This document shows, one piece after another, positions 44,222 through 59,048 of a DNA stretch of 64,000 nt. The stretch is from Halomonas sp. THAF5a (GTDB lineage: Bacteria; Pseudomonadota; Gammaproteobacteria; Pseudomonadales; Halomonadaceae): positions 2,914,001 through 2,978,000 of the forward strand of contig NZ_CP045417.1 of NCBI RefSeq assembly GCF_009363755.1, read 5' to 3'. The notes beneath the pieces were generated by a model. That model was not told where the DNA came from. It searched no databases and saw only the letters and a program-made list of their open reading frames with translations. Within the stretch, counting starts at the first letter, position 1; every line of letters starts with the position of its first letter. Both the position numbers and the translations under genes were made by a program.

Positions 44222-44247
44222 TCGACGGGAATGGCCAACGGGCGTGA

Positions 44248-44766
44248 TCAGTGCGCCGAATGCTTGCCCATCTCACCATGGGCCATGTCGTCGTGACCCG
44301 TGCCGGCCTGGTCCGACATCTCCATCGGCTGCACCCGCTGGACCGGCGCCTCGAGGGTCATCGTCTCACCGTTGTCGAGGGTCAGGGTCAGCTCGACGCG
44401 CTCGCCCTCGACCGGGGTGGCGGCCAGCTCGAACATCATCAGGTGCCAGCCGCCCGGCACCAGTCGCACGCTTTCGCCGGCCGGCAGCGGGATCGCCTCG
44501 ACCCGGCGCATCTGCATCACGCCGTCGACCATCACGTGGTTGTGCAGCTCCAGGTGGCCGGCCAGCGGCGAGGCGCCGCCAACCAGCGCCCGGTCCGTCT
44601 CGCCTGGATTGGTCAGCGTCATGAAGGCGGCGGTAGTGGCCGACCCGGGGGGCACGGCGCGCACGTGTGCGCCCTCGACGGTGAGGGCGTCAGCCTGGGC
44701 GGCGACACCAAGCAGCGGCAGGGAGAGCAGAGAGAGCAGGAATAGCGGGCGGGCAGCGAGGCGCAT
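44248..44766 (-). CDS. Periplasmic copper chaperone PCu(A)C family
   Basis: A 172-residue exported protein with a signal peptide of about 25 residues (ending QADA). The copper site H-x-M ... M ... H-x-M is seen as ELHNHVMVDGVMQMRRV and PGGWHLMMFEL. An extra His/Met-rich tail (HDDMAHGEMGKHSAH) could add copper ligands. PCu(A)C proteins deliver Cu(I) to the CuA or CuB site of cytochrome oxidase. The ATG at 44766 is chosen; GGAG lies nine bases upstream. The gene is convergent with the phosphorylase gene. Confidence 0.88.
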   Translation of the reverse strand: MRLAARPLFLLSLLSLPLLGVAAQADALTVEGAHVRAVPPGSATTAAFMTLTNPGETDRALVGGASPLAGHLELHNHVMVDGVMQMRRVEAIPLPAGESVRLVPGGWHLMMFELAATPVEGERVELTLTLDNGETMTLEAPVQRVQPMEMSDQAGTGHDDMAHGEMGKHSAH

Positions 44767-45015
44767 GTCGGTCGACTCCATGGGCTCAAGGGGAAAGCTC
44801 GAGCTTACCCTGCCCGGCCGTTGACGGGGAGCGGGCTGCGACATTGCGTCCCGCACGCGGCGGCAGGGATTAATCCACGGCTAATGCCGGCGTGTCAGGA
44901 TGGGAACTTCGGAGCACGGCGCGGGGTCCCCTCGTCACCCGTGACGCCGTCTCACGCCCCTTCGCCGGGACATGACGACGCGCGTCACCACCGCGCCTCA
45001 CACAAGGAGATCACG

Positions 45016-45774
45016 ATGCGTCCCCTCTCCCTGACGGCCGGCCTGCTCTCGCTGGCCGCCGCCCTCCCCCTCTCCGCCGACACCGCCTGGCCGGCGCCGA
45101 TCCAGGCGCTGGTAGCGGAGGGGCTCGAGGTGCACGCCCGCTTCGAGGCGCCCGGCGGGCTCGAAGGCTTCGCCGCCAGCCATCGCGGCCGCGAGATGGC
45201 CGTCTACCTCACCCCGGATGGCGAGCATGCGGTGGTCGGCACCCTGATCGACGCCGAGGGCAACGACCTCTCCGCCGCGCCCCTGGACGAGCACGTGCGC
45301 CGCGCCCAGGAGACCGAGGTGTGGCAGACGCTGGAAGAGAGCCACTGGATCCGCGACGGCGACCCGGGCGCCGAGCGCATCCTCTACACCTTCACCGACC
45401 CCAACTGCCCCTACTGCGCGCGCTTCCACGAGCAGAGCCGCCCCTGGGTCGAGGCGGGCCGGGTCCAGCTGCGCCATGTCATGGTCGGCATCCTGGAGCA
45501 CGACAGCCCCGCCAAGGCCGCCGCCCTGCTCGGCGCCGAGGATCCCGCCCGGGCGCTTAAGGCGCACCGGCGAAGCGACGACGGCATCGCGGCCTCGGCC
45601 CAGCCCCGGGAGATCGAGGAGCAGGTGCGGGCCAACAACCAGCGCTTCGAGAGCCTCGGCCTGATGGCCACGCCCACCACCTACTATCGCGGCGACGACG
45701 GCCGCCTGGAGCGGGTCCAGGGCGCCCCCCAGGAGGCGCGCCTGATCGAGATAATGGGCTCACCGCGTCCCTGA
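45016..45774 (+). CDS. dsbG: DsbC/DsbG-like periplasmic disulfide isomerase
   Basis: A 252-residue exported thioredoxin-fold protein. Signal peptide about 21 residues, an N-terminal dimerisation domain (about 22-90), the CPYC redox site in DPNCPYCARFHEQ and the cis-proline in ATPTTYYRG. DsbG-type proteins rescue or isomerise oxidised cysteines. The ATG at 45016 has AAGGAG eight bases upstream. It sits alone on the plus strand, and a hairpin follows. Confidence 0.88.
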   Translation: MRPLSLTAGLLSLAAALPLSADTAWPAPIQALVAEGLEVHARFEAPGGLEGFAASHRGREMAVYLTPDGEHAVVGTLIDAEGNDLSAAPLDEHVRRAQETEVWQTLEESHWIRDGDPGAERILYTFTDPNCPYCARFHEQSRPWVEAGRVQLRHVMVGILEHDSPAKAAALLGAEDPARALKAHRRSDDGIAASAQPREIEEQVRANNQRFESLGLMATPTTYYRGDDGRLERVQGAPQEARLIEIMGSPRP

Positions 45775-45813
45775 CGCCGCGGAAGGGAGCAACCGATCCT
45801 GCTCCTATCTCAC

Positions 45814-45845
45814 GACGCGGGCCCCGCTTTCGCGAGGCCCGCGTC
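45814..45845. terminator. Hairpin between convergent dsbG and tsdA
   Basis: GACGCGGGCC (45814-45823) pairs with GGCCCGCGTC (45836-45845). It lies between two convergent genes. No U-run is present, so it is a weak bidirectional terminator at best. Confidence 0.5.
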
Positions 45846-45866
45846 ATCGAGAGCATGCGGTGGAGA

Positions 45867-46883
45867 TCAGTCGTCGAGATCTTCGAAGCGCGGCTGGCCG
45901 ACGTTCCAGGGCTTGACCGTCTCGCCCTTTTCGCCCCAGTTGGCGTGGTCGGCCAGTCGGTGACCGTCGCTATCGCGCACCAGACCGTAGCTGGAGTGCT
46001 TGTGGAAGGTGGGCCCGAACATCTCGCGCGTCTCCTCCACATCGCCGGTATAGCGAGGATCCTGGGGCCGCTCCTGGCGGGTCATGAAGTAGGCGACGTC
46101 CCAGGCCTCCTGGTCGCTGAGCGACAGCGGCTGGCCGAGCGGCATGTTGTTCTTGATGAATCCCGCCGCGGTATGGGTACGCACGATCCCGGCGCCCCAG
46201 TTGTTGGAGCCATCCCCCCAGGTCGCCGGGAAGACATACTCACCCTCCTGGTAGAGACCCGAGCCATCATCACCGTGGCAGATGGCACACTGCTCGGCGA
46301 AGATTGCCTCGCCACGCGCGTAGCTGAGTTCCTCGGGGCGCTCCGGTGCCGGGAAGCCACGACCGTAAATCGGCTGATCGGGATAGACGGGAGCGCCCGT
46401 CGCGAGCCAGCGATGGTAGGCGGAGAGCGCCAGCATGTCATCGCTGCCGTATGCCGGCGGCGTGCCGTTCATGGAGTAGGCGAAGCAGCCGGCAATACGC
46501 TCCTCGAGGCTGTTGACGTGCTGGTTCTTGCCCCGAAAGTTCGGCAGGGTCACGGCGGCCGGCCAGATTGGCGCGCTGAAGGGCTGACGTCCCTCGCCGA
46601 GGTGACAGCTGGAGCAGTTCATGTCGTTGAAGACATTCTCGCCGCGCAGCTGCTGGGTATTGGTGAAGAGGTCATACCCCCGGCGGATGACCTTCTTCAG
46701 CTCGGGATTCAGATCGGCCGCCTCGAGGTCCGCCATGGTCGGCGGCACATGGACCAGCTCGCCCTCCTCGGGCGCGGGATAGCCCATCTCGACGAGCTGC
46801 TCGTAGTCTGCCCAGGCGGCCATGCTGATGCCGGCCGCCAGTGTCGCGCTGGCCAGGGCCAGGGTTGTCCTGAGATATGTCAT
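45867..46883 (-). CDS. tsdA: Thiosulfate dehydrogenase (tetrathionate-forming)
   Basis: A 338-residue periplasmic dihaem cytochrome. Signal peptide (1-25), haem 1 at CSSCH (90-94), Cys133 in GCFAYSMNG, which fits the unusual Cys haem ligand of TsdA, and haem 2 at CAICH (199-203). Conserved strings GYDLFTNTQQLRG, NWGAGIVRTHTA, NMPLGQPLSLSDQEAWDVA and ERPQDPR match TsdA, which oxidises thiosulfate to tetrathionate (or the reverse). It ends an operon of response regulator, kinase and c4-type cytochrome, each overlapping or close. The ATG at 46883 has GGGGGAG upstream. Confidence 0.92.
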   Translation of the reverse strand: MTYLRTTLALASATLAAGISMAAWADYEQLVEMGYPAPEEGELVHVPPTMADLEAADLNPELKKVIRRGYDLFTNTQQLRGENVFNDMNCSSCHLGEGRQPFSAPIWPAAVTLPNFRGKNQHVNSLEERIAGCFAYSMNGTPPAYGSDDMLALSAYHRWLATGAPVYPDQPIYGRGFPAPERPEELSYARGEAIFAEQCAICHGDDGSGLYQEGEYVFPATWGDGSNNWGAGIVRTHTAAGFIKNNMPLGQPLSLSDQEAWDVAYFMTRQERPQDPRYTGDVEETREMFGPTFHKHSSYGLVRDSDGHRLADHANWGEKGETVKPWNVGQPRFEDLDD

Positions 46884-46896
46884 GCTCTGCTCCCCC

Positions 46897-47574
46897 TTAT
46901 TCGGACGCCACGGACTGATTGGCCAGCCAGGCCGAGACGGCGCGGATGTCCACGTCGCCCATCCGCTCGGCAATGGCGCCCATCAGGTGCTGCGGATCAT
47001 TGCTGCGCTCACCGGCCTGCCAGGCCCTGAGCTGTGCCTCGATGTAGCCCGCATGCTGGCTGGCGATGCCGGGGAAGGTCCCGCCCACGCCCTGGTTGTT
47101 CGGGCCGTGACAGCTTGAGCAGGACACGATGTACTGGTCCCAATCACCGCGCAGGGCGAGCTGTTCGCCACGCGCCAGCAGCGCCGCGTCGGCGCCCTCG
47201 CCGCCCTGGGCATCGGTCACCGGCATCTGGCTGAAGTAGACCGCCACATCGGCGATCTGCTGGTCGTCGAGCATGGTGGCAAAGGGCATCATGGTGGTGT
47301 TCTGGCGACGGCCCGCCTTGAAGTCGTGCAGCTGCTTGGCGATATAGGCCGCCGGCAGCCCGGCCAGGCGCGGCCAGGACTCGCCCCCCGGGATATTCAT
47401 GCCGCTGCCGTCGGCCTGATGGCAGGCCACGCAGGTCGCGGCCGCCTGCTGGCCGCGCTCGGCGTCGCCCTCCAAGGCCTGCCCGGCCGCCTGCGCCGAT
47501 AGCGGCGCCGACGCCTGAGCTGCCGCCAACCCCAGCAACAGCCCGAGGCCAGTCGTGATCCTCATGATCGTCAT
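46897..47574 (-). CDS. tsdB: Dihaem cytochrome c4-type protein (TsdB-like)
   Basis: A 225-residue exported dihaem cytochrome with CVACH (48-52) and CSSCH (152-156), each followed by a c4-type half. It probably accepts electrons from TsdA, as TsdB does in several bacteria, and passes them to the oxidase. The ATG at 47574 overlaps the kinase stop (ATGA); an ATG at 47565 is the alternative and would also leave a signal peptide. It is 13 bases upstream of tsdA. Confidence 0.9.
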   Translation of the reverse strand: MTIMRITTGLGLLLGLAAAQASAPLSAQAAGQALEGDAERGQQAAATCVACHQADGSGMNIPGGESWPRLAGLPAAYIAKQLHDFKAGRRQNTTMMPFATMLDDQQIADVAVYFSQMPVTDAQGGEGADAALLARGEQLALRGDWDQYIVSCSSCHGPNNQGVGGTFPGIASQHAGYIEAQLRAWQAGERSNDPQHLMGAIAERMGDVDIRAVSAWLANQSVASE

Positions 47575-48956
47575 CTGGCTTTCCCCTCGTCATTGTCGTT
47601 GATCCCGTGCCGGGATTCCGGTCGGACCGGCGAGGCCGGTCCCGTCATCAGCGGCAGCGTCAGCCGCGCCTCCAGCCCGCCCCCTGCGGGGCGGCGAAAT
47701 GCCAGTTGGCCGCCGAAGCGCTCGGCGATGGCGGCCACGATGGCGAGCCCCAGGCCGCTGCCCTGCCGGCGGCTGGCCCGCCAGAAGCGCCGAGCCAGCT
47801 GGTCGAGCTCGGCCTCCGCGACCCCGGGGCCGTGATCCCTGACGCCGAAGGTCAGCGTCCCGTCCGAGGCATCTTGTCGGACGGAGATCGCCACCGGGCT
47901 CCCCTCGGGCCCGTGGCGCAGTGCGTTGTCGACCAGGTTGCGCAGCGCCGTGATGGCGAGCTCCCGGGGCACTGCGAGCTCCCCCGCAGGCCAGGAGCCG
48001 GGCTGCGTGACCCGGGCCCGCTCGCTCGCCGCGGCGTCGCGCAGGGCGAGCGTCGCGACGTCGGCGGCGCGGCTGGCCTCGCCGTCCTCGAAGTGCACCC
48101 GCCCCTCGACCCGGGCCAGCATCAGCAGCTGGTCCAGGGTGCGGGAGAGCCGGGCCACGCCCTCCTCGGCGTGGTTCAGCGCCCGGCGCGCCGCCTCGCC
48201 CTCGACCCGCCGCGCCACCTGCAGGTGGGTCTTGATGGCCGTGAGCGGCGTGCGCAGCTCGTGGGCCGCATCGTTGGTGAAGCGCTGCTCGCGGACGATG
48301 GCCTGCTGGATCCGCGCCAGCAGGCCGTTGAGCGCATCCACCAGCGGGCGGATCTCGCGGGGCACGCCGTGGGTCGCCACCGGGGCCAGGGCGTCCGGGT
48401 GGCGCCGCGCCAGGGCGTCGCGCAGCCGCTCGAGCGGCGCGAGCCCTCGCACCACGCCGAGCCACAGCGCCAGCAGGCTGCCGGACAGCGCCACCACGAA
48501 GGGCACCACCGCCACCTCCAGCACGTTGCGCATCAGCAGGTCGCGCTCGTCCATGCGATCGGCGGTGGTGATGGTCAGGCCGTTGCGCTGGTAGGTGAAC
48601 ACCCGCCAGGTGATGTCGCCCTCCTCGCGATAGGCGTGCCCGGGCTCGCCGGCCTCGAGGACCTCCTGCATGTCGCTGTGGGTGCGCGCCAGGATCTCGC
48701 CCCGAGGGGAGTGCACCTGGCAGGCCAGCCCCTCGATGGGCGGGATGGAGAGCGCCCGCCGGTCGGCCCGCTCCCACACCGCCACCGGCAGCTGCGCCAT
48801 CAGTCCCGAGACCATGCGCGCCGACTGGGCGAGGCGCTGATCGAGGGTCGCCTCGACCTGCTGATAGAGATCGCGCATCAGCCAGGCGGCGGCGAGCCCC
48901 CAGAGCAGCAGCAGCGTGACCCCGAGGGTCAGCACCAGTCGCGTGCGCAGGCTCAT
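47571..48956 (-). CDS. Two-component sensor histidine kinase (QseC-like)
   Basis: A 461-residue inner-membrane kinase: transmembrane helices near 8-28 and 152-175 with a periplasmic sensor between, HAMP, dimerisation domain with phospho-His in NDAAHELRTPLTAI, and ATPase with NLVDNALRHG, DHGPGV and GSGLGLAIV. It is coupled by overlaps both to the regulator gene before it and to the cytochrome gene after it. It probably senses a sulfur or redox signal and controls the tsd genes, but the signal is not known. Confidence 0.92.
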   Translation of the reverse strand: MSLRTRLVLTLGVTLLLLWGLAAAWLMRDLYQQVEATLDQRLAQSARMVSGLMAQLPVAVWERADRRALSIPPIEGLACQVHSPRGEILARTHSDMQEVLEAGEPGHAYREEGDITWRVFTYQRNGLTITTADRMDERDLLMRNVLEVAVVPFVVALSGSLLALWLGVVRGLAPLERLRDALARRHPDALAPVATHGVPREIRPLVDALNGLLARIQQAIVREQRFTNDAAHELRTPLTAIKTHLQVARRVEGEAARRALNHAEEGVARLSRTLDQLLMLARVEGRVHFEDGEASRAADVATLALRDAAASERARVTQPGSWPAGELAVPRELAITALRNLVDNALRHGPEGSPVAISVRQDASDGTLTFGVRDHGPGVAEAELDQLARRFWRASRRQGSGLGLAIVAAIAERFGGQLAFRRPAGGGLEARLTLPLMTGPASPVRPESRHGINDNDEGKAR

Positions 48957-49654
48957 GGTCGACCCGCCCCGGGGCGAGCCGGCGCCTCGACCGCCTCGGG
49001 CGGACCGAGCCGGTACCCGAGCCCGCGCACCGTCTCGATCACCCGCCCGCCGAGCTTGCGACGCAGGTGGTGGATGTGAACGTTGAGGGCATTGCTCTCC
49101 ACCTCCCCGTTCATGCCGTAGAGGCTGTCCTTGAGCTGCTCGGCGCTGAGCACGCTGCGCGGCGCCTGGAGGAAGGCCTCCAGCAGCACCAGCTCGCGGC
49201 GCGACAGCGCCACCGGCCGCCCCGCCACCGTCACCTCCCGGGAGACGGGGTCGAGACGGAGCGCGCCGTGCTCGACCAGCGCCTGGGCGCGCCCGGCGGC
49301 CCGGCGCAGCAGGGCCAGCAGCCGCGCCACCAGCTCGTCGAGGTCGAAGGGCTTGACCAGGTAGTCGTCGGCGCCGACGTGCAGCCCCTCGATGCGATCG
49401 CTCACCGCGTCGCGGGCGGTGAGGATCAGCACCGGGAGGTCGATGCCAGCCGCCCGCCACTCCTCGAGCAGCGTCATGCCGTCGCCGTCGGGCAGGCCGC
49501 GGTCGAGGATCACCACGTCGCTCGCCACCGTCTCCATGGCCGCGCGCGCCTCCGCCAGGGTGCCCACGGTGTCCACGACGAAGTCGTAGACGCCGAGCCC
49601 GGCCTGGATGCCCGACGCCACCAGGGCGTCATCCTCGATGAGCAGTACGTGCAT
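48953..49654 (-). CDS. OmpR-family response regulator (QseB-like)
   Basis: A 233-residue regulator with a receiver domain (Asp in VVILDRGLPDG, Lys in DDYLVKPFDLDEL) and a winged-helix DNA-binding domain (LSRRELVLLEAFL, NALNVHIHHLRRKL, VRGLGYRL). It starts the kinase-tsdB-tsdA transcript and its stop overlaps the kinase ATG. The start is the ATG at 49654. Confidence 0.93.
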   Translation of the reverse strand: MHVLLIEDDALVASGIQAGLGVYDFVVDTVGTLAEARAAMETVASDVVILDRGLPDGDGMTLLEEWRAAGIDLPVLILTARDAVSDRIEGLHVGADDYLVKPFDLDELVARLLALLRRAAGRAQALVEHGALRLDPVSREVTVAGRPVALSRRELVLLEAFLQAPRSVLSAEQLKDSLYGMNGEVESNALNVHIHHLRRKLGGRVIETVRGLGYRLGPPEAVEAPARPGAGRP

Positions 49655-49789
49655 GACAGGAGATCCTCGTGAACGGCGTCATCTTGTCAGCGGGCCATTA
49701 AGCGGGCGTTAAGTCGCGCCGTCCGGCGGGCCGTCCTTTGGTCGAACGCGGCCTCCCTGCGGGAGGGGAGGTCCGGGCGGGAGGGACGA

Positions 49790-50218
49790 TCAGCCCCGGG
49801 CGGGGAGCGCCCGGGCCGCGAACCAGCCGAGCACCATCGCCACCAGCATGGCGGCCAGCGGCGCGGAGAGCCCGGCGAGGGAGGCGAAGGCCGGCCCCGG
49901 GCAGTAGCCGGAGAGCCCCCAGCCGATGCCGAACAGGGCGGCGCCGCCGATCAGCCGGCCGTCGAGGTCGGTGCGGGTGGGCAGCTGGAAGCGCTCGCCG
50001 ACGAGCGGATGGGGGCGGCGCAGCACCCATCGATAGCCGAGGAAGTTGGTGATCACCGCCCCGCCGAGCACGAACATCAGGGTCGGGTCCCAGGCGCCGG
50101 CGAGATCGAGGAAGTCCAGCACCCGGGCCGGGTCGGTCATGCCGGAGACGGCGAGGCCGAGGCCGAAGAGCAGCCCGGCGACGTAGCCCATCAGGGTCTT
50201 TACGGTCTCGCGCCTCAT
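49790..50218 (-). CDS. YeeE/YedE-family membrane protein, second half (DUF6691-like)
   Basis: A 142-residue protein with about four hydrophobic helices. It has GLGLAVSGMTDPARVLDFLD, typical of the second half of split YeeE/YedE transporters, and WGLSGYCPGPAFASL with a conserved Cys. YeeE-family proteins import thiosulfate in E. coli. The ATG at 50218 overlaps the stop of the first-half gene. Confidence 0.88.
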   Translation of the reverse strand: MRRETVKTLMGYVAGLLFGLGLAVSGMTDPARVLDFLDLAGAWDPTLMFVLGGAVITNFLGYRWVLRRPHPLVGERFQLPTRTDLDGRLIGGAALFGIGWGLSGYCPGPAFASLAGLSAPLAAMLVAMVLGWFAARALPARG

Positions 50219-50676
50219 GCTCCCCCACCGATGACGTGGCGCACGACGAAGACGGTGACGATCGCCGCCGCCAGGAAGGTCAGGGTGGCGACCAGCGAGC
50301 GGGGCGAGAGCCGCGCCAGGCCGCAGACGCCGTGGCCGCTGGTGCAGCCGCTGCCGAGCCCGGTGCCGAGCCCCACCAGCAGGCCGGCGGCGAGCATCAG
50401 CGGCACGCCCCCGGCGGGGGCGCCGATCACCTCGCCCGGCGCGCCCGCCACGTTGCCGGCCCCGCCGCCGGCGAGCAGCAACGCGACCGGCCCGCTGACC
50501 AGGCCCAGCAGGAAGGCCAGCCGCCAGGCGCTGTCGCCCCGGGGGCGCTGGGTGATCAGGGTGCCGAGGATGCCGCTGATGCCGGCGATGCGGCCCAGGG
50601 TCGCCATCAGCCAGGTGGCCGAGAGGCCGATCAGGACGCCCCCGATCAGCCCCTGCAGGCTTGCCGTCCAATCCAC
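50215..50676 (-). CDS. YeeE/YedE-family membrane protein, first half
   Basis: A 153-residue membrane protein with about four or five helices and the family string GLGSGCTSGHGVCGLARLSPRS, whose cysteines are the thiosulfate relay in studied members. With the coupled gene at 49790 it would form one split transporter. The start is the GTG at 50676, with AGGAGG nine bases upstream. Confidence 0.88.
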   Translation of the reverse strand: MDWTASLQGLIGGVLIGLSATWLMATLGRIAGISGILGTLITQRPRGDSAWRLAFLLGLVSGPVALLLAGGGAGNVAGAPGEVIGAPAGGVPLMLAAGLLVGLGTGLGSGCTSGHGVCGLARLSPRSLVATLTFLAAAIVTVFVVRHVIGGGA

Positions 50677-50709
50677 GTGAAGGGTCCTCCTGAAAGAATC
50701 AGTGGTCGC

Positions 50710-50901
50710 TTACTTCTGCCGCCGACAGGTGCTGATGCCGAGCAGGCGATAGGCGGGACAGGTGCCGAGCAGGCCGGTAACCAGCGGCACCAGGCCGATG
50801 AAGCCCCAGGCGCCGACCTGGCCGGTGATGGCCAGGCCGATCAGCACGGCGCCGATGACGATGCGGGCGAGCTTGTCGATGCCGCCGACGTTGCGGGTCA
50901 T
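50710..50901 (-). CDS. DUF2892 inner-membrane protein (copy 1)
   Basis: A 63-residue protein of the DUF2892 family with two hydrophobic segments, starting MTRNVGGIDKLARI and with CPAYRLLGISTC near its end. Such proteins are often fused or adjacent to rhodaneses and sulfide oxidation genes. It overlaps the SulP gene end by four bases. AAGGAG precedes its ATG. Copy 2 is at 57520-57711. Confidence 0.88.
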   Translation of the reverse strand: MTRNVGGIDKLARIVIGAVLIGLAITGQVGAWGFIGLVPLVTGLLGTCPAYRLLGISTCRRQK

Positions 50902-52754
50902 GGTGTGTCTCCTTGCGGTGCGCGAACACGCCCGGCCAGGGGGACGTGTCCGGTGACGGGGTCGGGCCCCGGATCGGATGAGCGTGACGCCTCGGCGCCG
51001 GCGAGGCCGGCCCCGCCGCAGGCCGCCGAGGAGGTCTCGGCGGCGCGCTCGTCGTGGAGCGCCCGCCAGGCATCGAAGGTACTCAGGTAGACGCGACCGG
51101 TCAGCGCCCGACAGAAGTCGGTGTGCACCAGGCGATCCATCACCGGCCCCTTGACCTCGGCCAGGTGCAGGGCGATGGCGGCGTCCCTAAGGCGGGCGTT
51201 GATCGCCTCGAGGCTCTCCAGCGCCGAGGCGTCGATGACGTTGACCGCCTGGCAGGCCAGCACCACGTGGCGCAGCCCGGGCTGGCGGACGGCCAGCGCC
51301 ATCACGGTGTCCTCGAGGTAGCGGGCGTTGGCGAAGTAGAGGCTCTCGTCGATGCGCAGGATCGCCAGGCGCTCGTCGGTCTCGACCGCGTGGCGCTGGA
51401 CATTGCGAAAGTGCTCGCTGCCCGGCACGCGCCCCACCACGGCGCTGTGGGGGCGGCTGGTGCGATAGAGATGCAGGCCCAGCGACAGCCCGACGCCGGC
51501 CAGGATGCCGCTCTCCACGCCGTGGAGCAGGGTCAGTGCCAGGGTCGCCAGCATCGCCGCGCCGTCGGCCCGGGAGTAGTCCCAGGTGCGCTTGATCGCC
51601 GGCAGGTCGATCAGGGTGCCCACGGCGACGATGATGGTGGCGGCGAGCGTCGCCTTGGGCAGGAAGGCCAGCGGCGCGGTCAGGGTGAGGGTCGCCACGG
51701 CGATCCCCAGGGCCGTGAAGGCGCCGGCGAGCGGCGTGGCGGCGCCGGCCTCGAAGTTGACCACCGAGCGCGAGAAGCCGCCGGAGACCGGCGAGCCGCC
51801 GCTGCCACCGGCGCCGAGGTTGGCCAGCCCCAGGGCGATCAGCTCCCGGTTGGGGTCGATGCGCTGGCGACGCTTGGCGGCCAGGGTCTGGGCGACCGAG
51901 ACCGACTCCACGAAGCCCACCAGGCTGATCAGTACCGCCGCCGGCAAGAGGCTCGACCACAGCGCGGGATCGAGGCTCGGCAGCGCCAGCGTCGGCAGGC
52001 CGCTCGGCACCTCGCCGACCAGGGCCACGCCCCGCTCGCCGAGCCCCAGTCCCCAGGCCAGCAGAGTGGTGACGATCACCGCCGAGACCGGCGCGGCCTT
52101 GGCCACCAGATCCGCCGCGGTCGTCGACAGCCCCAGGCGGGTGAGCCCGCCCTTGAGATAGCGCCGGCAGATCAGCAGGAAGGCCCAGACGCCCAGGCCG
52201 ATCGCCAGGGTCATGGCGTGGGTGTCGCCCAGCGCGGCGATCAGCGCCGAGCCAAGCGCCACGAGGTTATGGCCGGACGCTTCCACGCCCAGGATGTGAC
52301 GCAGCTGGCTGGCGGCGATCAGGATGCCCGAGGCGGTGACGAAGCCCGAGATCACCGGGTGGCTCAGGAAGTTGGCCAGAAACCCCAGGCGCAAGAGGCC
52401 CATGGCCACCAGCACCAGCCCGGAGAGCGCGGCCAGCACCAGGGCGGCGGCGACGTACTCGGCGCTGCCCGGCGCCGCGATCCCGGCGAGCGCCGAGGCG
52501 GTCATCAGCGAGGCCACCGCCACCGGTCCCACCGCCAGGGTGGCGCTGGTGCCGAAGAGCGCATAGAGGACCAGCGGCAGCATGCTGGCGTAGAGCCCCA
52601 CCTCCGGGGGAAGCCCCGCCAGCAGGGCGTAGGCCAGCGCCTGGGGCACCAGCATCAGCGTCACGATCACCGCCGCCAGCAGGTCGCTCGCGAGCGCATC
52701 GCGCCGATAGCCGTGCAGCCAGCCGATCAGGGGAATCCAGCGGGAAAGGTTCAT
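50898..52754 (-). CDS. SulP-family anion transporter
   Basis: A 618-residue transporter with about eleven to fourteen transmembrane helices (residues 1-440) and a cytoplasmic STAS domain (about 460-590). The conserved VPQALAYALLAGLPPEVGLYASMLPLVLYA starts the core domain. SulP proteins carry sulfate, bicarbonate or other anions. Its place between sulfide:quinone oxidoreductase and DUF2892 genes suggests moving sulfate or sulfite, but direction is unknown. Confidence 0.9.
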   Translation of the reverse strand: MNLSRWIPLIGWLHGYRRDALASDLLAAVIVTLMLVPQALAYALLAGLPPEVGLYASMLPLVLYALFGTSATLAVGPVAVASLMTASALAGIAAPGSAEYVAAALVLAALSGLVLVAMGLLRLGFLANFLSHPVISGFVTASGILIAASQLRHILGVEASGHNLVALGSALIAALGDTHAMTLAIGLGVWAFLLICRRYLKGGLTRLGLSTTAADLVAKAAPVSAVIVTTLLAWGLGLGERGVALVGEVPSGLPTLALPSLDPALWSSLLPAAVLISLVGFVESVSVAQTLAAKRRQRIDPNRELIALGLANLGAGGSGGSPVSGGFSRSVVNFEAGAATPLAGAFTALGIAVATLTLTAPLAFLPKATLAATIIVAVGTLIDLPAIKRTWDYSRADGAAMLATLALTLLHGVESGILAGVGLSLGLHLYRTSRPHSAVVGRVPGSEHFRNVQRHAVETDERLAILRIDESLYFANARYLEDTVMALAVRQPGLRHVVLACQAVNVIDASALESLEAINARLRDAAIALHLAEVKGPVMDRLVHTDFCRALTGRVYLSTFDAWRALHDERAAETSSAACGGAGLAGAEASRSSDPGPDPVTGHVPLAGRVRAPQGDTP

Positions 52755-52784
52755 GGGCGTCTCATCATCAATGGTGTACCTGGC

Positions 52785-54038
52785 TCAGTCGCGGCGAGCG
52801 GGACGCGCCAGCCACTCGTGCCCCTTGAGCATGCCGTTCCAGTAGAGCCAGGGCAGCTGCTTGGCCTTGAGCCACCAGGCCCGGCGGGTCGCCCGGGTGC
52901 CCTCGTTGACCCAGCGGGGAAAGCTCGGCTGCAGCGCGCCGCCGTAGCCGAACTCGGCGAGCACGATGCGCCCGCGCTCCACGGTCAGCGGGCAGGAGCC
53001 GTAGCCCAGATAGGCGGCCGGCAGCGGCGCCCCGTCCAGGGAGGCCAGCAGGTTCTCCGCCACCACGGGCGCCTGTTTGCGCACCGCCGCCGCGGTCTTG
53101 GCATTGGACGTGCCGCTGGCATCGCCCAGCCCGAACACCGCCGGGTAGCGAGCGTGCTGGAGGGTCTCGGGATCCAGGTCCAGCCAGCCGGCCTCGTTGG
53201 CGAGCGGCGACGTCGCGATGAAGGCCGGCGCCTTCTGCGGGGGCACCACGTGCAGCATGTCGAAGGGCCGCTCCTCCTCCCGCTCGCCGTCCTCGCCGCT
53301 CACCGCGAAACGCGCCGTGCGCGAGGGACCATCGACGGCCACCAGGCGATGCCCGAAGGCCGTCTCGATGCCGTAGCGCTCGATATAGCGCTCCAGGGCC
53401 GGCACGTAGTCCGGCACCCCGAACAGCACCTGCCCGGCATTGCAGAAGCTCACGTCGATGTCACCCAGGCGACCCTGGCGACGCCAGTGGTCACAGGAGA
53501 GGTACATGGCCTTCTGCGGGGCCCCGGCACACTTGATCGGCATCGGCGGCTGGGTGAACAGCGCCCTGCCCCGCTCCAGCGACTGCACCAGCGACCAGGT
53601 GTAGGGCGCGAGGTCGAAACGGTAGTTGGAGGTCACGCCGTGCTGGCCCAGCGCCTGCTCCAGTCCCTCGATGGCGCCCCAGTCGATCACCAGCCCCGGT
53701 GCCACCACGAGCCGGGTGTAGCCGAGGCGGCGGCCGTCGCCCAGCACCACCTCGCCGGCGGCGGGGTCGATGCGATCGGCGTCGACCGCGTACCAGCTGG
53801 CCCTGTCGGGAATCACGTCGGCCATGGGGCGTCGGGTGATGGCGGCCGGGAAGACGCCGCCACCGACCAGGGTCCAGCCGGGCTGATAGCTGTGCGTCTC
53901 GGCCGGATCGACGATGGCGATGTCCAGGTCGCCGCGGCGCTTCAGGAGGCTCGCCGTCACGGCGATGCCCGCGGCCCCGGCGCCGATGACGACGACATCG
54001 TGGTGACGGGCAGACTGTTCGGGGGTCGAAGGGTGCAT
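52785..54038 (-). CDS. sqr: Sulfide:quinone oxidoreductase
   Basis: A 417-residue FAD-dependent enzyme: VVVIGAGAAGIAVTASLL binds FAD, FGLGDASG is the second FAD motif. Cys170 in IKCAGAPQK and Cys349 in LGYGSCPL are positioned like the redox pair of type II SQR, which oxidises sulfide to persulfide and reduces quinone. A C-terminal hydrophobic/amphipathic part could bind the membrane. It is 55 bases from the DUF442 gene and 30 from SulP, so a common transcript is likely. Confidence 0.88.
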   Translation of the reverse strand: MHPSTPEQSARHHDVVVIGAGAAGIAVTASLLKRRGDLDIAIVDPAETHSYQPGWTLVGGGVFPAAITRRPMADVIPDRASWYAVDADRIDPAAGEVVLGDGRRLGYTRLVVAPGLVIDWGAIEGLEQALGQHGVTSNYRFDLAPYTWSLVQSLERGRALFTQPPMPIKCAGAPQKAMYLSCDHWRRQGRLGDIDVSFCNAGQVLFGVPDYVPALERYIERYGIETAFGHRLVAVDGPSRTARFAVSGEDGEREEERPFDMLHVVPPQKAPAFIATSPLANEAGWLDLDPETLQHARYPAVFGLGDASGTSNAKTAAAVRKQAPVVAENLLASLDGAPLPAAYLGYGSCPLTVERGRIVLAEFGYGGALQPSFPRWVNEGTRATRRAWWLKAKQLPWLYWNGMLKGHEWLARPARRD

Positions 54039-54093
54039 GGCGTGGCTCCGGGAGCGTGGTCGTTATCGTTGTCGTTGACGTAAGAGGGGCCTG

Positions 54094-54513
54094 TCAGGCC
54101 TTGAGCAGCTCGCGGATCGGCTGCGGGTCGTGACCGGCGGCATGTGCCGCGTCCAGCAGCGCCGGGATGTCACAGCCGGCTTCACGGCTGCGGGCCTGGG
54201 CCCAGAGATGCACGGCGCGCTTGCCGGTCCGGCAGAAGGCCAGGATCGGGGTGGGCAGCGTGTCCAGGGCCTGGCCGAAGGCCGCGATGTCGGCGTCGCC
54301 GTAGTCGCCCGGCGTCACGGGGATGCAGCGCCACTCAAGGCCGAGACGGGAGGCCCGCTCGCGCAGGGGGCTGTCGTCGGGATGGTCCTCCGCCTCGCCG
54401 GGACGGCGATTGCAGATCACCGAACGGAAGCCGCGACGGGCGATCTCGTCGAGATCGTCGGGGGTCACGGCGTCGGCGATGGCGAAGCCGCTTTCGAGCT
54501 GTCGAATCTGCAT
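54094..54513 (-). CDS. DUF442/TIGR01244-family sulfur transferase-like protein
   Basis: A 139-residue protein with a phosphatase-like loop: FCRTGKRAVHLWAQAR, of the kind found in the N-terminal domain of Blh (beta-lactamase-like hydrolase) fusions. Here it is a separate gene beside the metallo-hydrolase gene. It may act on persulfide. The ATG at 54513 has AGGAG five bases upstream; the GTG at 54519 is not needed. Confidence 0.85.
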   Translation of the reverse strand: MQIRQLESGFAIADAVTPDDLDEIARRGFRSVICNRRPGEAEDHPDDSPLRERASRLGLEWRCIPVTPGDYGDADIAAFGQALDTLPTPILAFCRTGKRAVHLWAQARSREAGCDIPALLDAAHAAGHDPQPIRELLKA

Positions 54514-54570
54514 GAACACTCCTGAAAAGGATGATGGTGCATGGGACCTCGGGCGCGGGACGCCCTGGCC

Positions 54571-55440
54571 TCAGAACTTGTCGATCGGCACCTTGAGGTA
54601 GACCTGACCGTTCTCCTCGGCCGGCGGCATCTGACCGGCGCGCATGTTGACCTGCACGGAGGGCAGGATCAGGCGCGGCATGCCGAGGGTGGCGTCGCGC
54701 TCGGTGCGCATCCGGACGAACTCGTCCTCGCTGACCCCTTCGTGGACATGCACGTTGTGGGCACGCTGTTCCGCCACGCTGGTCTCGTGCTGGTACTCCT
54801 CGCGATTCGGCGCCTTGTAGTCGTGGCACAGGAACAGCCGGGTCTCGGCCGGCAGGGCCAGCACCTTCTGGATGGAGCGGTAGAGGGCGCGGGCATCCCC
54901 GCCCGGGAAGTCACAGCGGGCAGTGCCGTAGTCCGGCATGAAGAGGGTGTCGCCGACGAAGGCGGCATCGCCGATCACGTAGGTCAGGCAGGCCGGGGTA
55001 TGGCCCGGGGTATGCATCACCCGCCCTTCCAGGTGGCCGATGGCGAAGGTGTCGCCCTCCTCGAAGAGGCGATCGAACTGGCTGCCGTCGCGGGCGAACT
55101 CGGTGCCGGCATTGAAGGCCTTGCCGAAGACCTCCTGGACCACGGTGATATTGGCGCCGATGCCGGTCTTGCCCCCCAGCGCCCCGTGCAGGTAGGGGGC
55201 GGCGGAGAGATGATCGGCATGGACGTGGGTCTCAAGGATCCACTCGACCTCGAGCCCGTGGTCTCTCACGAAGTCGATGATCTCGTCGGCGGAGCGCACG
55301 TCGGTGCGACCGGCGGCGTAGTCGAAGTCGAGGACCGAATCGAGGATCGCGCAGGCCTGGCTGTCAGGATCCTGCACCACGTAGCTGAAGGTGTTGGTCG
55401 GTTCGTCGAAGAAGTGAGTGACCACTGGCTGCGGGGACAT
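54571..55440 (-). CDS. ETHE1/Blh-like persulfide dioxygenase (copy 1)
   Basis: A 289-residue metallo-beta-lactamase-fold protein with HVHADH (72-77), HTPGHTPACLTYVIGD, GDTLFMPDYGTARCDFPGG and CHDYKAP as metal-binding motifs. This fits the persulfide dioxygenase group that oxidises glutathione persulfide to sulfite. It begins the operon to sqr and SulP. The ATG at 55440 has CGGAGG upstream. Confidence 0.87.
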   Translation of the reverse strand: MSPQPVVTHFFDEPTNTFSYVVQDPDSQACAILDSVLDFDYAAGRTDVRSADEIIDFVRDHGLEVEWILETHVHADHLSAAPYLHGALGGKTGIGANITVVQEVFGKAFNAGTEFARDGSQFDRLFEEGDTFAIGHLEGRVMHTPGHTPACLTYVIGDAAFVGDTLFMPDYGTARCDFPGGDARALYRSIQKVLALPAETRLFLCHDYKAPNREEYQHETSVAEQRAHNVHVHEGVSEDEFVRMRTERDATLGMPRLILPSVQVNMRAGQMPPAEENGQVYLKVPIDKF

Positions 55441-55483
55441 GGGAAGAACCTCCGTCGAATGTCGCTGTACGGTCGCAGGATTC

Positions 55484-55505
55484 AGAATACCTCATTATAC
55501 ATTCT
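55484..55505 (-). promoter_or_regulatory. TATAAT promoter element inside an inverted repeat
   Basis: TATAAT (minus strand, plus positions 55494-55499) lies between AGAAT (55484-55488) and ATTCT (55501-55505). The inverted arms flank the -10 box, as expected for a repressor operator at the promoter of the persulfide dioxygenase operon. The -35 is weak. Such sites are used by sulfide-sensing ArsR-type repressors, but no such gene is in this window. Confidence 0.5.
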
Positions 55506-55613
55506 AAGGTTAGATCTTTTAGAGATATAGGGGCCGACCTACATACCCCCTGGGCGTCGACGGCCCACCGACCGTGCGATGGGCCTCGCCCCCCTTCTCG
55601 CCTCATGCCGGCG

Positions 55614-56525
55614 TCACTCCCAGGCGGCTCCCTCCAGGGCGTCCAGCGGAATCTTCAGATAGCGCTTGCCGTTCGCCTCGGGCGCCGGCAGACGACCACC
55701 CCGGGTATTCACCTGCAGGGCGTGCAGGATCAGCTTGGGCATCGGCAGTTCGCTGTCTCGCCGGTCGCGCATGGCGGCGTAGTCGTCTTCGGTGACGCGG
55801 CCGGCCAGGTGCTTGTTGCGTTCGCACTGCTCGCGCACCGTGCTCTCCCACTCTGGCTCGCGGCCATTCGGCATGTAGTCATGACCGGTGAACAGACGCG
55901 TCTCGTCGGGCAGGGCCAGGATCGCCTGGATGGAGCGCCACAGCTGATGGGCATCGCCGCCGGGGAAGTCGGCCCGGGCGGTGCCGAAGTCCGGCTGGAA
56001 GAGCGTGTCATGAACGAAGGCGGCATCGCCGATCACGTAGGTGATCGAGGCCAGGGTGTGCCCCGGCGAGAACATCACCCGGGCCTCGAGCTCACCGATG
56101 CGGAAGGTGTCACCCTCGGCGAACAGGCGATCCCACTGGGAGCCGTCCGCGGGAAAGTCCGGCCAGTGGTAGATCTCCTTCCAGAGCGCCTGGACCTCGA
56201 CCACCTTCTCGCCGATGGCGGTGGGCGCGCCGGTCTTCTCCTTCAGGTACTGCGCGGCCGAGAAGTGGTCGGCATGGGGGTGGGTGTCCAGCACCCACAC
56301 CACCTCGAGCCCGTGCTCCTGCACATAGGCGAGCAGCTCGTCGGCGTGGTGAGTGGCGGTGGCACCCGACTTCTCGTCGAAGTCATGAACCGGGTCGATG
56401 ATCGCGCACTTTCGCGTGGCCGGGTCGCTGACCACGTACTGCACCGAGAAGGTGCGCGGATCGAAGAAACCGGCGACATCCGGCTGGCCGGCACCGCTGG
56501 CGGGAGAGAGTTCAAAGGTCTTCAT
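55614..56525 (-). CDS. ETHE1/Blh-like metallo-hydrolase, second copy
   Basis: A 303-residue paralogue of the gene at 54571. It has HPHADH (82-87), MFSPGHTLASITYVIGD, HDTLFQPDFGTARADFPGG and GHDYMPN. The overall match to copy 1 is good but not close. It is 73 bases downstream of the peroxiredoxin gene, on the same strand. The ATG at 56525 has AGGAGG eight bases upstream. It may act on another persulfide or polysulfide. Confidence 0.86.
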   Translation of the reverse strand: MKTFELSPASGAGQPDVAGFFDPRTFSVQYVVSDPATRKCAIIDPVHDFDEKSGATATHHADELLAYVQEHGLEVVWVLDTHPHADHFSAAQYLKEKTGAPTAIGEKVVEVQALWKEIYHWPDFPADGSQWDRLFAEGDTFRIGELEARVMFSPGHTLASITYVIGDAAFVHDTLFQPDFGTARADFPGGDAHQLWRSIQAILALPDETRLFTGHDYMPNGREPEWESTVREQCERNKHLAGRVTEDDYAAMRDRRDSELPMPKLILHALQVNTRGGRLPAPEANGKRYLKIPLDALEGAAWE

Positions 56526-56598
56526 GTGGCCTCCTGACGTCAAGCAACGTGATCGTGGCCAGGGGCCCCGGCGGCTGCCGGGGCCTGGAGTGTCGGAC

Positions 56599-57246
56599 TT
56601 ACAGGTCCTTCTTGCAGAAGTACCAGTCGACGTAGTCATAGCCCTGGTCCTTGCGCGCCTCGGCTTCGGCATCGGTGGCGGGCGGCGGCACGATGACCTG
56701 GTCACCCGGCTGCCAGTTCTCGGGCGTGGCGACGCCGTTGGCATCGCTGGTCTGCAGGGCCTTGACCAGGCGAAGGATCTCGTCGACGGAGCGGCCGTTG
56801 GACATCGGGTAGTAGACCATGGCGCGCAGGATGCCTTCCGGGTCGATCACGAAGGTGGCGCGAACGGCGGCGGTGTCGCTGGCACCCGGCTGGATCATGC
56901 CGTAGGCATTGGCCACCTGCATGCTCAGGTCGGCGATGATCGGGAAGGGAATCTCGATGCCGAAATTCTCCTTGATGCTGCGCGTCCAGGCGATGTGGGC
57001 ATGCACGCTATCGATGGACAGACCCAGCAGCTCGGTATCGAGCGCCTTGAACTGGTCGGCACGGGTGGCGAAGGCGGAAAACTCGGTGGTGCAGACCGGC
57101 GTGAAGTCGGCCGGATGAGCGAAGAGCACCAGCCACTTGCCCTTGTAGTCGCCCAGCGACTTCTCGCCGTGGGTGGTCTTGGCGGTGAAATCCGGTGCCG
57201 GACGGTTCAGCTGGGGCATGGCAGGTTGTTGCACTTGCGTTTCCAT
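56599..57246 (-). CDS. Peroxiredoxin (Prx6/1-Cys type)
   Basis: A 215-residue Prx with the peroxidatic Cys52 in HPADFTPVCTTEFSAF. It is of the longer, Prx6-like class (about 215 residues, with VIDPEGILRAMVYYP and a long C-terminus) and ends with WYFCKKDL. It reduces peroxides and may handle persulfide side reactions. The ATG at 57246 has GAGGAG seven bases upstream; the earlier ATG at 57252 is too close. Confidence 0.9.
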   Translation of the reverse strand: METQVQQPAMPQLNRPAPDFTAKTTHGEKSLGDYKGKWLVLFAHPADFTPVCTTEFSAFATRADQFKALDTELLGLSIDSVHAHIAWTRSIKENFGIEIPFPIIADLSMQVANAYGMIQPGASDTAAVRATFVIDPEGILRAMVYYPMSNGRSVDEILRLVKALQTSDANGVATPENWQPGDQVIVPPPATDAEAEARKDQGYDYVDWYFCKKDL

Positions 57247-57270
57247 GATCATTCTCCTCTGAGGGGTGGA

Positions 57271-57305
57271 GGTGAGAGAACCTCACCGCGACAACAGTTA
57301 TAACT
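57271..57305 (-). promoter_or_regulatory. Palindromic operator-like site and leader hairpin of peroxiredoxin gene
   Basis: The perfect palindrome AGTTATAACT (57296-57305) contains TATAAC, a possible minus-strand -10 element. Downstream, GGTGAG (57271-57276) and CTCACC (57282-57287) can form a leader hairpin just ahead of the ribosome-binding site. Confidence 0.4.
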
Positions 57306-57451
57306 TTATTCACTTTTCACATATACGGCCAATTGAGCCATTCGATAGGCCCGATAGCGCCGGCTGTGCCAGGGACTCGTCCGCCCTGACGCTCGACGCC
57401 CCATCCCGGGGCCTCCATGTCGACCTGTCGCCGCGCTGTGCTGCGATACGC

Positions 57452-57487
57452 AAAAAGCGCCCGGTCCATCAGATGAGCCGGGCGCTT
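57452..57487 (-). terminator. Rho-independent terminator of the rhodanese-DsrE-DUF2892 genes
   Basis: AAGCGCCCGG (57455-57464) pairs with CCGGGCGCTT (57478-57487), followed on the minus strand by a U-run (57452-57456). Confidence 0.85.
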
Positions 57488-57519
57488 GGGATAACACCGA
57501 GGGTTCGATGCGTTGCGGA

Positions 57520-57711
57520 CTACTTCTTCGGCTTGCAGGTATTGATGCCGAACAGGCTGTAGGCCGGGCAGAAGTTGAACAGGCCGGTGGCCAGCGGTAC
57601 CACGCCGATCCAGCCCCAGGCACCGATGGTGCCGGTCAGGGCCAGCAGGATCAGCAGGGCGCCGACCACGATCCGGGCTATCTTGTCGATGCCACCCACG
57701 TTGCTCTTCAT
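57520..57711 (-). CDS. DUF2892 inner-membrane protein (copy 2)
   Basis: A 63-residue protein closely related to that at 50710: same length, the shared NVGGIDK start and the C-terminal CPAY..FGINTC pattern. Two membrane segments. GGAGTCTGTC precedes the ATG. It follows the DsrE-like gene by 29 bases and ends with the terminator at 57452-57487. Confidence 0.88.
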   Translation of the reverse strand: MKSNVGGIDKIARIVVGALLILLALTGTIGAWGWIGVVPLATGLFNFCPAYSLFGINTCKPKK

Positions 57712-57740
57712 GACAGACTCCTTCGGTTCGCTTCGGACGC

Positions 57741-58214
57741 TCAGAAGCTGTACACGGGGATGGCCGGATCACGCATCATCTCGGCCATCGGCCCCGGGGC
57801 CGCCACGCCGACGCCCTCGCGAAGCTCCGCTTCGCCGTGATCGCTGTTGGGCAGATAGATGGCGCAGACATCCACGCTCGCGCCCTTGTCCATCAGCATG
57901 CCCAGGATGCCCTCCGGCGTGACCTGGCCCGCCGGGTTGGCAGGGGGCGTCTTGATCGCCTCGGCACTGGCGTAGCCCTGGACGGCCAGGTCCCCGGCCG
58001 CGTCGCAGAGCAGGATGTGCAGGTCGGTGCCCTGCTGCTGCATGGCATTGGCGAGGATCATCGCCATGCCCTGGGTCTGCAGCGAGTCGCTGGTGAGAAT
58101 CACCAGGGCCCGGTCCTGCGGCGTCTCGCCGCCGTGGCTGTCGGCCGCAGCCATGCCGGCGAACCCGATCGTGGCCGCCGCGGCGGCCAGGGTCAGTCGC
58201 TTCTTGATCGTCAT
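57741..58214 (-). CDS. Periplasmic DsrE-like sulfur protein
   Basis: A 157-residue protein with a signal peptide of about 24 residues (ending MAAA) and a DsrE/TusD-like alpha/beta fold: ALVILTSDSLQTQGMAMILANAM and LHILLCDAAGDLAV. The conserved Cys positions in LLCDA and DVCAIYL could carry sulfur. DsrE proteins pass sulfane sulfur between partners; a secreted one would act beside the periplasmic rhodanese. The start is the ATG at 58214 with GAGGTGAG upstream. Confidence 0.8.
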   Translation of the reverse strand: MTIKKRLTLAAAAATIGFAGMAAADSHGGETPQDRALVILTSDSLQTQGMAMILANAMQQQGTDLHILLCDAAGDLAVQGYASAEAIKTPPANPAGQVTPEGILGMLMDKGASVDVCAIYLPNSDHGEAELREGVGVAAPGPMAEMMRDPAIPVYSF

Positions 58215-58283
58215 CTGCTCACCTCACTGGATCATTCATGATGGCCGGTCCTCCCTCATCGACGGAGGACCTACCGAGGACAT

Positions 58284-58868
58284 TCACTCGGCCGGACGCC
58301 AGGCGACGTCGGGATCGATTTCATAGCTCCAGGGCAGCCCGGAGTTGCGCCAGCCGTTCACCGCGCGGACGCCCTCGGACACCCCCTCCTTGAGCTTGCT
58401 GCCCTCGAAGCCATCCGTGACCGAATAGACCTGGCGGAAGCCCATCTCGGCAATCACGTCGGCGCCGGGGGCGCTGCGGGTGGAGCCGGAGCGGCACATG
58501 ACGATGATCGGATCGTCCTCGGCCACGCCCAGGGCCTCCAGTTCGGCGCGAACCTGGGCCTCGAAGTCGGCATTCTTGACCATCGGCCAGGTCTTGGCCT
58601 CTGCGTTGAAGTGGTCGCGATCGGCCAGCACCCAGGGCACGTGGATGTCGGTGGGCTCGGCGAAGCCGGTGAACTTGATCTCCACGGGATCGCGCACGTC
58701 GATCAGGATGGCTCGCTCGTTGTCCTGCATCAGCGCATAGGCCTCGCTGGCGGTGACGTAGAGGCCCAGCTGCGTTTCCCGGTAGGCCGCGGCCTCCTCG
58801 GCCAGGGACGGACCGGCGACCAGTACTGCGGCGAGCAGGCAGCCCGCGACACCATGCCGTATTTTCAT
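58284..58868 (-). CDS. Periplasmic rhodanese-like sulfurtransferase
   Basis: A 194-residue single-domain rhodanese with a signal peptide (ending SLA), an ILIDVRDPVEIKF entry and the active-site loop CRSGSTRS. It can take sulfane sulfur from thiosulfate or a persulfide. It heads a likely operon with the DsrE-like and DUF2892 genes (gaps 69 and 29 bases). The ATG at 58868 has AGAGG upstream. Confidence 0.88.
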   Translation of the reverse strand: MKIRHGVAGCLLAAVLVAGPSLAEEAAAYRETQLGLYVTASEAYALMQDNERAILIDVRDPVEIKFTGFAEPTDIHVPWVLADRDHFNAEAKTWPMVKNADFEAQVRAELEALGVAEDDPIIVMCRSGSTRSAPGADVIAEMGFRQVYSVTDGFEGSKLKEGVSEGVRAVNGWRNSGLPWSYEIDPDVAWRPAE

Positions 58869-59048
58869 AACAAAAACCTCTAAGCAAATAACCTAACTCG
58901 CGGACCAATCTAGACCATGATCGCCGCCGCCGCATGAGGCATGACGCCGCACCTGGCGCGTACTCCGATCGTTGCCCACCCCGCTTGCGCCACTCGGCGC
59001 GCCGGCCGGGTGGCGAGAGGTCCTGCGATGTCGAGGCGGGAGCGAGCC

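Follow-up and report, generated by a model that had tools for sequence, protein, structure and literature searches.

In Halomonas, tetrathionate is commonly formed by heterotrophs, and the sulfur physiology of the genus has been described (PMC8014003, PMC9237845). The closest published loci are those of H. titanicae SOB56 and eight other Halomonas tsdBA regions, in which a regulator named 'QseB' precedes tsdB-tsdA and dsbG follows, with a kinase among the neighbours in five genomes; in SOB56, thiosulfate raises tsdA 4.3-fold and tsdB 21.5-fold (PMC9237845). The authors ascribed this rise to possible quorum sensing, which is the printed guess that we found for its control in Halomonas (PMC9237845). 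Heterotrophs also carry genes for sulfide:quinone oxidoreductase (SQR) and persulfide dioxygenase (PDO) as pairs, and in Halomonas clade I sqr adjoins pdo (PMC8014003). In Pseudomonas, DsbRS is a two-component system that activates dsbDEG and senses copper in P. aeruginosa (PMC10141476, PMC9233671, PMC11195947). We compared these systems with a run of 16 sulfur-related genes on the minus strand (45867-58868) of a 64,000-nt stretch (the window) from Halomonas sp. THAF5a, whose genome is a single contig of 3.8 Mb and has Halomonas species as its nearest named relatives by tsdA. The pathway is a known one, and what is new is an apparent DsbRS-like variant of its regulation. We consider it probable that the locus was built by accretion at one Halomonas chromosomal site and consists of at least two separately controlled modules, the second of which is of the DsbRS type.

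A first-pass annotation, made by a model from the sequence alone, did not know the arrangement as a described unit. The components, the pathway and the tsdBA-'QseB'-DsbG neighbourhood are already published (PMC8014003, PMC9237845); the DsbRS identity of the two-component system, a link between DsbRS and tsdBA, the box described below, the split control and the pairing of SQR with the anion transporter SulP were not found in the open-access PMC literature among the matches listed. Some of the published regions have 'soxH homologue' genes near tsdB, which are perhaps persulfide dioxygenases. The published reading differs from ours in that the two-component system was taken for QseBC, with no regulator binding site in the text portions examined, and the main text does not contain the words 'sqr', 'persulfide dioxygenase' or 'YeeE' (PMC9237845). 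As in the SQR-PDO pairs of heterotrophs, SQR and a persulfide dioxygenase lie close together here and SoxB is unmatched, but in this locus they belong to a longer run that also includes DUF442, SulP, YeeE, tsd and dsb genes (PMC8014003).

The two-component system comprises a histidine kinase (47571-48956, minus strand) with HisKA, HATPase_c and 2CSK_N domains and an OmpR-class response regulator (48953-49654, minus strand) with Response_reg and Trans_reg_C domains. The gene for the thiol:disulfide interchange protein DsbG (45010-45774, plus strand; NCBIfam PRK11657 over cut-off; start codon inferred in an open frame that begins at 44821) is convergent with tsdA. The two-component system had been listed as a generic part of the block; it is present, but is better read as DsbRS-like than as QseBC because of its cysteine pattern, its linkage to dsbG, tsdA and dsbD, the position of the cysteine in Pseudomonas and the DsbRS literature. 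The window kinase has a single cysteine, residue 79, which lies between two apparent membrane segments (judged by eye) and is thus predicted to be periplasmic. This cysteine is kept in all 78 orthologue rows from the family, which represent 73 distinct proteins, the window's own included, as well as in the best 120 of 4614 database matches to the kinase and in 68 further proteins among the best 120 matches to the Halofilum homologue. It is absent from 19 of 19 QseC-like paralogues in the family, which were selected on regulators about 50% identical to the window's and have F, Y or M at this position, and none of the 19 paralogue stretches (7.5-8 kb) holds a dsbG or tsdA match.

Outside the family, a class-wide search gave 64 kinase places, all of which were fetched, the first 20 chosen by hand and then the other 44. 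Eight of these kinases have the cysteine. A dsbG and/or tsdA gene is found in the stretch of seven of the eight, versus 0 of the 56 kinases without it (Fisher p 1e-8, with kinship ignored and stretches of 3.5-16 kb); the later 44 gave neither a cysteine nor a dsbG/tsdA match (0/44 each). Two cysteine-bearing kinases, L281 and L285 (such L-numbers, e.g. L101, label the relatives' loci or stretches compared), are only 33% identical to the window's, like many that lack the residue. In L271-L273, dsbD is divergent from the regulator, and in L271 and L272 it is followed by a redoxin and a dsbG-like gene, an arrangement published for dsbRS of P. fluorescens (PMC13101516); the L271 stretch runs on into tsdBA. 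A DsrE-family gene stands between the DsbRS-like regulator and dsbG in L281 (8934-9521) and L285 (5218-5706), a further link between sulfur and dsb genes outside the family, and a DsbD-like frame was seen by eye in L285. The cysteine is residue 81 or 82 in all nine Pseudomonas-named homologues displayed, in agreement with Cys82 as the reported copper site of P. aeruginosa DsbS. Like DsbRS of Pseudomonas, the window system has a kinase (48-51% identical) with the cysteine at the equivalent place and an adjacent dsb gene; unlike it, tsdBA is in the operon and dsbG is the sole adjacent dsb gene, with neither dsbD nor dsbE beside it.

To survey the neighbourhood, 80 non-duplicate regulator loci were used, 50 with tsdA downstream and 30 without. 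The most constant neighbour of the two-component system is dsbG, which is convergent in 44 of the 50 tsd-bearing loci and in 22 of the 30 others (some misses being contig ends), and in tsd-bearing loci the system mostly lies directly before tsdB. Several observations weigh against a fixed association. The dsbRS and dsbG genes occur without other block genes in L192, L193, L194, L197 and L198, and the two-component system is missing from tsd loci L061, L064, L103 and L116 and reduced to a remnant in L067, all five of which have tsdBA following YeeE; the partnership is therefore optional. Among the distant mapped tsdBA loci, those outside Halomonadaceae have no close match to the pair, and L158, from an unclassified proteobacterial metagenome-assembled genome, has a QseC-like kinase without the cysteine and a regulator beside tsdBA. 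The kinase of L268 has the cysteine although its stretch matches neither dsbG nor tsdA, and the paralogue stretches were shorter than most others compared.

Upstream of the regulator (49681-49712, minus strand), a pattern scan identified a TTAA-N7-TTAA box that is kept in relatives. It reads TTAAC-N6-TTAAT, an 11-bp direct repeat 58 bases before the regulator start, and is followed by the -10-like TGACAAGAT. A similar candidate site, with 7 of 8 TTAA letters and one mismatch to the pattern, is upstream of dsbG (44870-44901, plus strand). These were the two matches in the scan of the window, where 0.01 were expected, and an extended pattern allowing up to two mismatches found three sites genome-wide, two of them at this module, compared with one for the reversed control. 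Across the survey, a perfect TTAA-N7-TTAA at -50 to -65 is present in 45 of 50 tsd-bearing regulator loci versus 1 of 30 others, with the boxes placed 55-59 bp ahead of the regulator. Of the five tsd-bearing loci that lack it, L118 has its start at the edge of a contig, L119 is off by a single base and L188 has tsdA over 8 kb farther along; the other two are L127 and L189. The sequence of the one box locus counted as lacking tsd, L191, stops within the kinase gene, and this locus may yet carry tsd. Where TsdA belongs to a divergent lineage (45-50%), six of the eight loci have the box, and Vreelandella titanicae BH1 (L130) has a perfect one.

There are also reasons for caution about the box. 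Both sites were already known when the extended pattern was drawn up, and its control gave one match against three; the pattern used for the window likewise postdates sight of the dsbG site. On the regulator tree tsd changes four times and the box seven, the independent pairs number two (starred branches) to four (all) and a sign test for coupling of box and tsd is not significant; with so few independent pairs, much of the raw significance may stem from kinship. Eighteen of the 30 tsd-lacking loci have YeeE within 600 bp of the regulator, and since a regulator without tsd is thus often in a YeeE operon, the absent box may only mean that it has no promoter of its own. A perfect box lies within 200 bp in 6 of 12 cysteine-less regulators examined outside the family, indicating that the box marks the QseB/PmrA class of regulators rather than DsbR alone, and as a signature of DsbR only it was ruled out. 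Among 59 rows from relatives, the dsbG site has 7 of 8 letters in eight and is perfect in none, and it is clear mainly in near kin (e.g. L062, L101, L104, L106). This predicted site is the sole hint here that a DsbRS-like system might directly activate a dsb gene. In L061 and L103, which lack the two-component system, 6 of 8 letters are present at the dsbG site. DsbR-type control of the SQR and PDO genes was considered and rejected, as the window has no further box match at up to three mismatches.

Taken together, linkage, cysteine and boxes suggest DsbRS-like control of tsdBA and dsbG. The second module would then be a DsbRS-type operon with tsdB-tsdA after the kinase, located beside dsbG. 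The kinase may read periplasmic thiol chemistry, either copper or thiol modification, through its lone Cys79, and the phosphorylated regulator would bind the 11-bp direct repeats of TTAA-N7-TTAA at its own promoter, raising expression of regulator, kinase, TsdB and TsdA, and would bind at dsbG as well. Such control would explain the rise of tsdA and tsdB with thiosulfate in H. titanicae SOB56. It would also link thiosulfate oxidation to periplasmic thiol repair. With one conserved cysteine in a DsbRS-like sensor, a defined box and outputs that can be measured (tsdBA, dsbG), control becomes a question open to direct testing.

A possible, though distinctly less probable, alternative is that the TsdBA part answers only copper or envelope thiol stress, with thiosulfate oxidation being incidental or serving to remove Cu(I)-binding thiosulfate. 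The copper-sensing role of P. aeruginosa DsbRS (PMC10141476, PMC9233671, PMC11195947) and the constancy of dsbG as a neighbour are consistent with this, but in H. titanicae it is thiosulfate itself that raises tsdBA (PMC9237845).

Somewhat more doubtful still is a variant in which the DsbRS-type kinase senses thiol damage of the polythionate type. Tetrathionate is a classical thiol reagent, and therefore Cys79 could sense the product of TsdA and DsbG could repair the damage: tetrathionate made by TsdA, or sulfane sulfur derived from thiosulfate, would modify Cys79, the regulator would raise tsdBA and dsbG, and DsbG would strip the modification, closing a feedback loop. If so, DsbRS systems as a whole would sense cysteine modification in the periplasm generally, with copper as one trigger.

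The favoured reading, with separately controlled modules, differs from that of the first-pass annotation, which viewed the whole block as one coordinated sulfide-to-tetrathionate pathway unit and counted seventeen genes, where 16 were found and its own list also totals 16. The run is unbroken on the minus strand and 12 of its 15 junctions are gaps of at most 75 bp, four of these being 4-bp overlaps, which is what a single unit would look like; the remaining gaps of 135, 173 and 273 bp fit it less well. All 16 genes, along with five from the flanks, were located on 40 stretches of up to 20 kb from relatives, and SQR was found in 0 of the 20 tsdA-selected family loci and tsdA in 0 of the 20 SQR-selected ones. 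A scan of named genomes by tsdA gave 79 loci, of which 52 were mapped first and the remaining 27, all more distant, later; both SQR and tsdA are present in 2 of the 52, Halomonas rhizosphaerae L101 and H. fontilapidosi L102, which share the run from PDOb to TsdA with the gene for YgaP-like transmembrane protein a (DUF2892) unmatched. Among 151 family genomes (SQRs of at least 50% identity), tsdA and SQR occur together anywhere in five, which is below chance (Fisher odds 0.29, p 0.013, kinship ignored), and within 12 kb in one, this genome. Two sets of genes do recur in Halomonas and Vreelandella, frequently with identical flanking genes: the PDO genes and the tsd half, made up of YeeE, the regulator and kinase, tsdB, tsdA and convergent dsbG. 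The block is therefore not conserved as a unit across Halomonadaceae, and unlinked genes in relatives, which the annotation had itself named as the observation that would count against it, are found in part. Since the PDO promoter and the tsd operon also carry different conserved cis elements, we regard the one-unit explanation as unlikely, and the comparison corrects the view of the run as a single pathway. In Halovibrio variabilis L129, the part from rhodanese to SulP lies beyond dsbG, downstream of tsdA.

In a SulP tree of 51 rows, the label 'SQR within 6 kb' changes three times, and 0 of 500 shuffles were as low. SulPs with a linked SQR fall into two clusters, of which they make up 11 of 12 and 10 of 11 rows, separate from 28 unlinked ones, and because of this clustering SQR and SulP seem to travel as a pair. 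These two genes would belong to the first module, with persulfide dioxygenase a, DUF442, a YgaP-like transmembrane protein and YeeE/YedE, and this module may have its own operator. Upstream of persulfide dioxygenase a (54571-55440, minus strand), at 55501-55514 on the minus strand, is the dyad TCTAACCTTAGAAT, which is conserved in relatives' promoters. Of 53 PDO promoters, 31, the window's included, agree with its consensus TCTAWNNTTAGAAY at 11 or 12 of the 12 positions, where shuffled letters would give 0.05 at 11 positions (the relatives are not independent of one another and were themselves the source of the pattern), and the element occurs with and without SQR, tsd or DsbRS. As the dyad differs from the TTAA box, two or more control circuits seem to converge on this locus. 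A genome-wide regulon of the PDO dyad was rejected, there being one perfect site only and no more one-mismatch matches than in the control.

Operons of the BigR/PmpR type contain Blh and YeeE/YedE, and they resemble this locus in bringing together PDO, DUF442 and the YeeE/YedE halves. They differ in that DUF442 and the dioxygenase are separate genes here and that no ArsR-type gene, the family of the repressor in those operons, is among the 16; the three HTH_5 matches of the genome lie elsewhere.

The gene families, strand and coordinates were borne out by Pfam, NCBIfam and PDB sequence searches, with weak calls for the YeeE N-terminal half and the DsrE-like protein, which were also compared with PHROGs. 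The families fit the proposed scheme of sulfide to persulfide to sulfite to thiosulfate to tetrathionate, whose steps follow established knowledge of these proteins, and catalysis by all block enzymes is judged here from family membership. SQR (52785-54038, minus strand) would convert sulfide to persulfide. It is type II-like and aligns with human SQOR (6mp5, E 2e-84) including two cysteine stretches (KCAGAPQK and SCPL) that hold the cysteine pair known as redox-active in the human enzyme, and its closest NCBIfam model, the type III selenoprotein one, gave 168.8 bits against a cut-off of 525. A second SQR-like gene, 42% identical, is elsewhere in the same genome (G000:C1:3180592-3181788). Persulfide would then be oxidized to sulfite by persulfide dioxygenase a (dioxygenase part of NF040641 E 2e-119; PDB 9g8t E 9e-129; ETHE1 4chl E 7e-22) and persulfide dioxygenase b (55614-56525, minus strand; dioxygenase part of NF040641 E 2e-169; 9g8t E 1e-97). 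Both have a metallo-beta-lactamase fold with an HxHADH motif and align to persulfide dioxygenase structures, with NF040641 scores below that model's full-length cut-off. Sulfite and persulfide would give thiosulfate. In this way the first module would oxidize sulfide to persulfide and sulfite, with YeeE/YedE importing sulfane-sulfur anions and SulP (50898-52754, minus strand; with STAS domain; PF00916 and TIGR00815 over cut-offs) moving oxyanions. YeeE/YedE, a putative TsuA-like transporter, is split into two genes that overlap by 4 bp. The C-terminal half (49790-50218, minus strand) is a DUF6691 match (PF20398, E 7e-43), and the N-terminal half (50215-50676, minus strand) is a weak one, with NCBIfam TsuA at E 8e-4 and Pfam Sulf_transp at E 0.042, both below cut-offs; a PDB sequence search with the halves gave no match or chance matches, and the PHROG search with the N-terminal half was empty. 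As for the claim that no sox genes are present, SoxB has no match in this genome and the other sox genes were not searched for; SoxB matches are found in 56 of 151 family genomes and exceed the cut-off in 0 of 151.

The last step would be carried out by TsdA, a c-type dihaem thiosulfate dehydrogenase (45867-46883, minus strand; Pfam SoxA-TsdA_cyt-c over cut-off), and its adjoining partner TsdB, a dihaem cytochrome c4-like protein (46897-47574, minus strand). In 5lo9, a natural TsdBA fusion, one half aligns with TsdB (E 1e-34) and the other with TsdA (E 3e-62), and TsdA also aligns to 4wqc (E 2e-41). Both CXXCH motifs, the Cys ligand of haem 1 and the Met of haem 2 are matched (ligand roles from PMC9237845). 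TsdBA would oxidize thiosulfate to tetrathionate in the periplasm, with electrons passing to the cytochrome. TsdA of Campylobacter reportedly acts as a tetrathionate reductase, and it is improbable, though conceivable, that the window TsdA does so in vivo instead of acting as an oxidase. The haem-2 Lys of A. vinosum TsdA is replaced by Asn here, as in the published Halomonas TsdA set (PMC9237845), which would be consistent with a reductase, but Halomonas strains with tsdBA form tetrathionate from thiosulfate (PMC9237845, PMC8014003). Least probable is the published reading of the pair as QseBC, by which thiosulfate oxidation would be under quorum sensing (PMC9237845), since the best NCBIfam matches, QseC for the kinase (203.8 of 475 bits) and PmrA (223.8 of 330) then QseB (217.8 of 345) for the regulator, are all far under the equivalog cut-offs and the QseC-like paralogues in the family have neither the cysteine nor the dsbG or tsdA linkage.

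The remaining genes of the block, all on the minus strand, encode two YgaP-like transmembrane proteins with DUF2892, a (50710-50901; PF11127, E 2e-23) and b (57520-57711; PF11127, E 1e-25), a DUF442 sulfur transferase (54094-54513; TIGR01244 over cut-off), a 1-Cys peroxiredoxin (56599-57246; 1-cysPrx_C, NF009668 over cut-off), a DsrE-like protein (57741-58214) and a rhodanese (58284-58868; PF00581 over cut-off), the last two with signal-like N-termini as seen by eye. The DsrE-like protein had no Pfam, NCBIfam or PHROG match, and the call comes from the first-pass annotation and context. No Rfam family was found at gathering thresholds in 44000-60000, and a scan for promoters and terminators gave no signal above shuffles. 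The GC content of the block is 0.696 compared to 0.697 for the window, and there is therefore no sign of recent import.

On one side the block is flanked by a sucrose-phosphorylase-like gene (42431-44221, plus strand) and on the other by genes for a GpgS-like synthase and a HAD protein of the mannosyl/glucosyl-3-phosphoglycerate phosphatase type (60547-61839 and 61764-62690, both minus strand), placing it as if inserted in an osmolyte locus of the glucosylglycerate type. These osmolyte-gene flanks recur in many relatives. Adjoining the block is a beta-CASP metallo-beta-lactamase gene (59049-60458, minus strand), which is likely an ordinary RNase-like paralogue; its best NCBIfam match is type VII Cas14, at 370.8 bits against a cut-off of 800.

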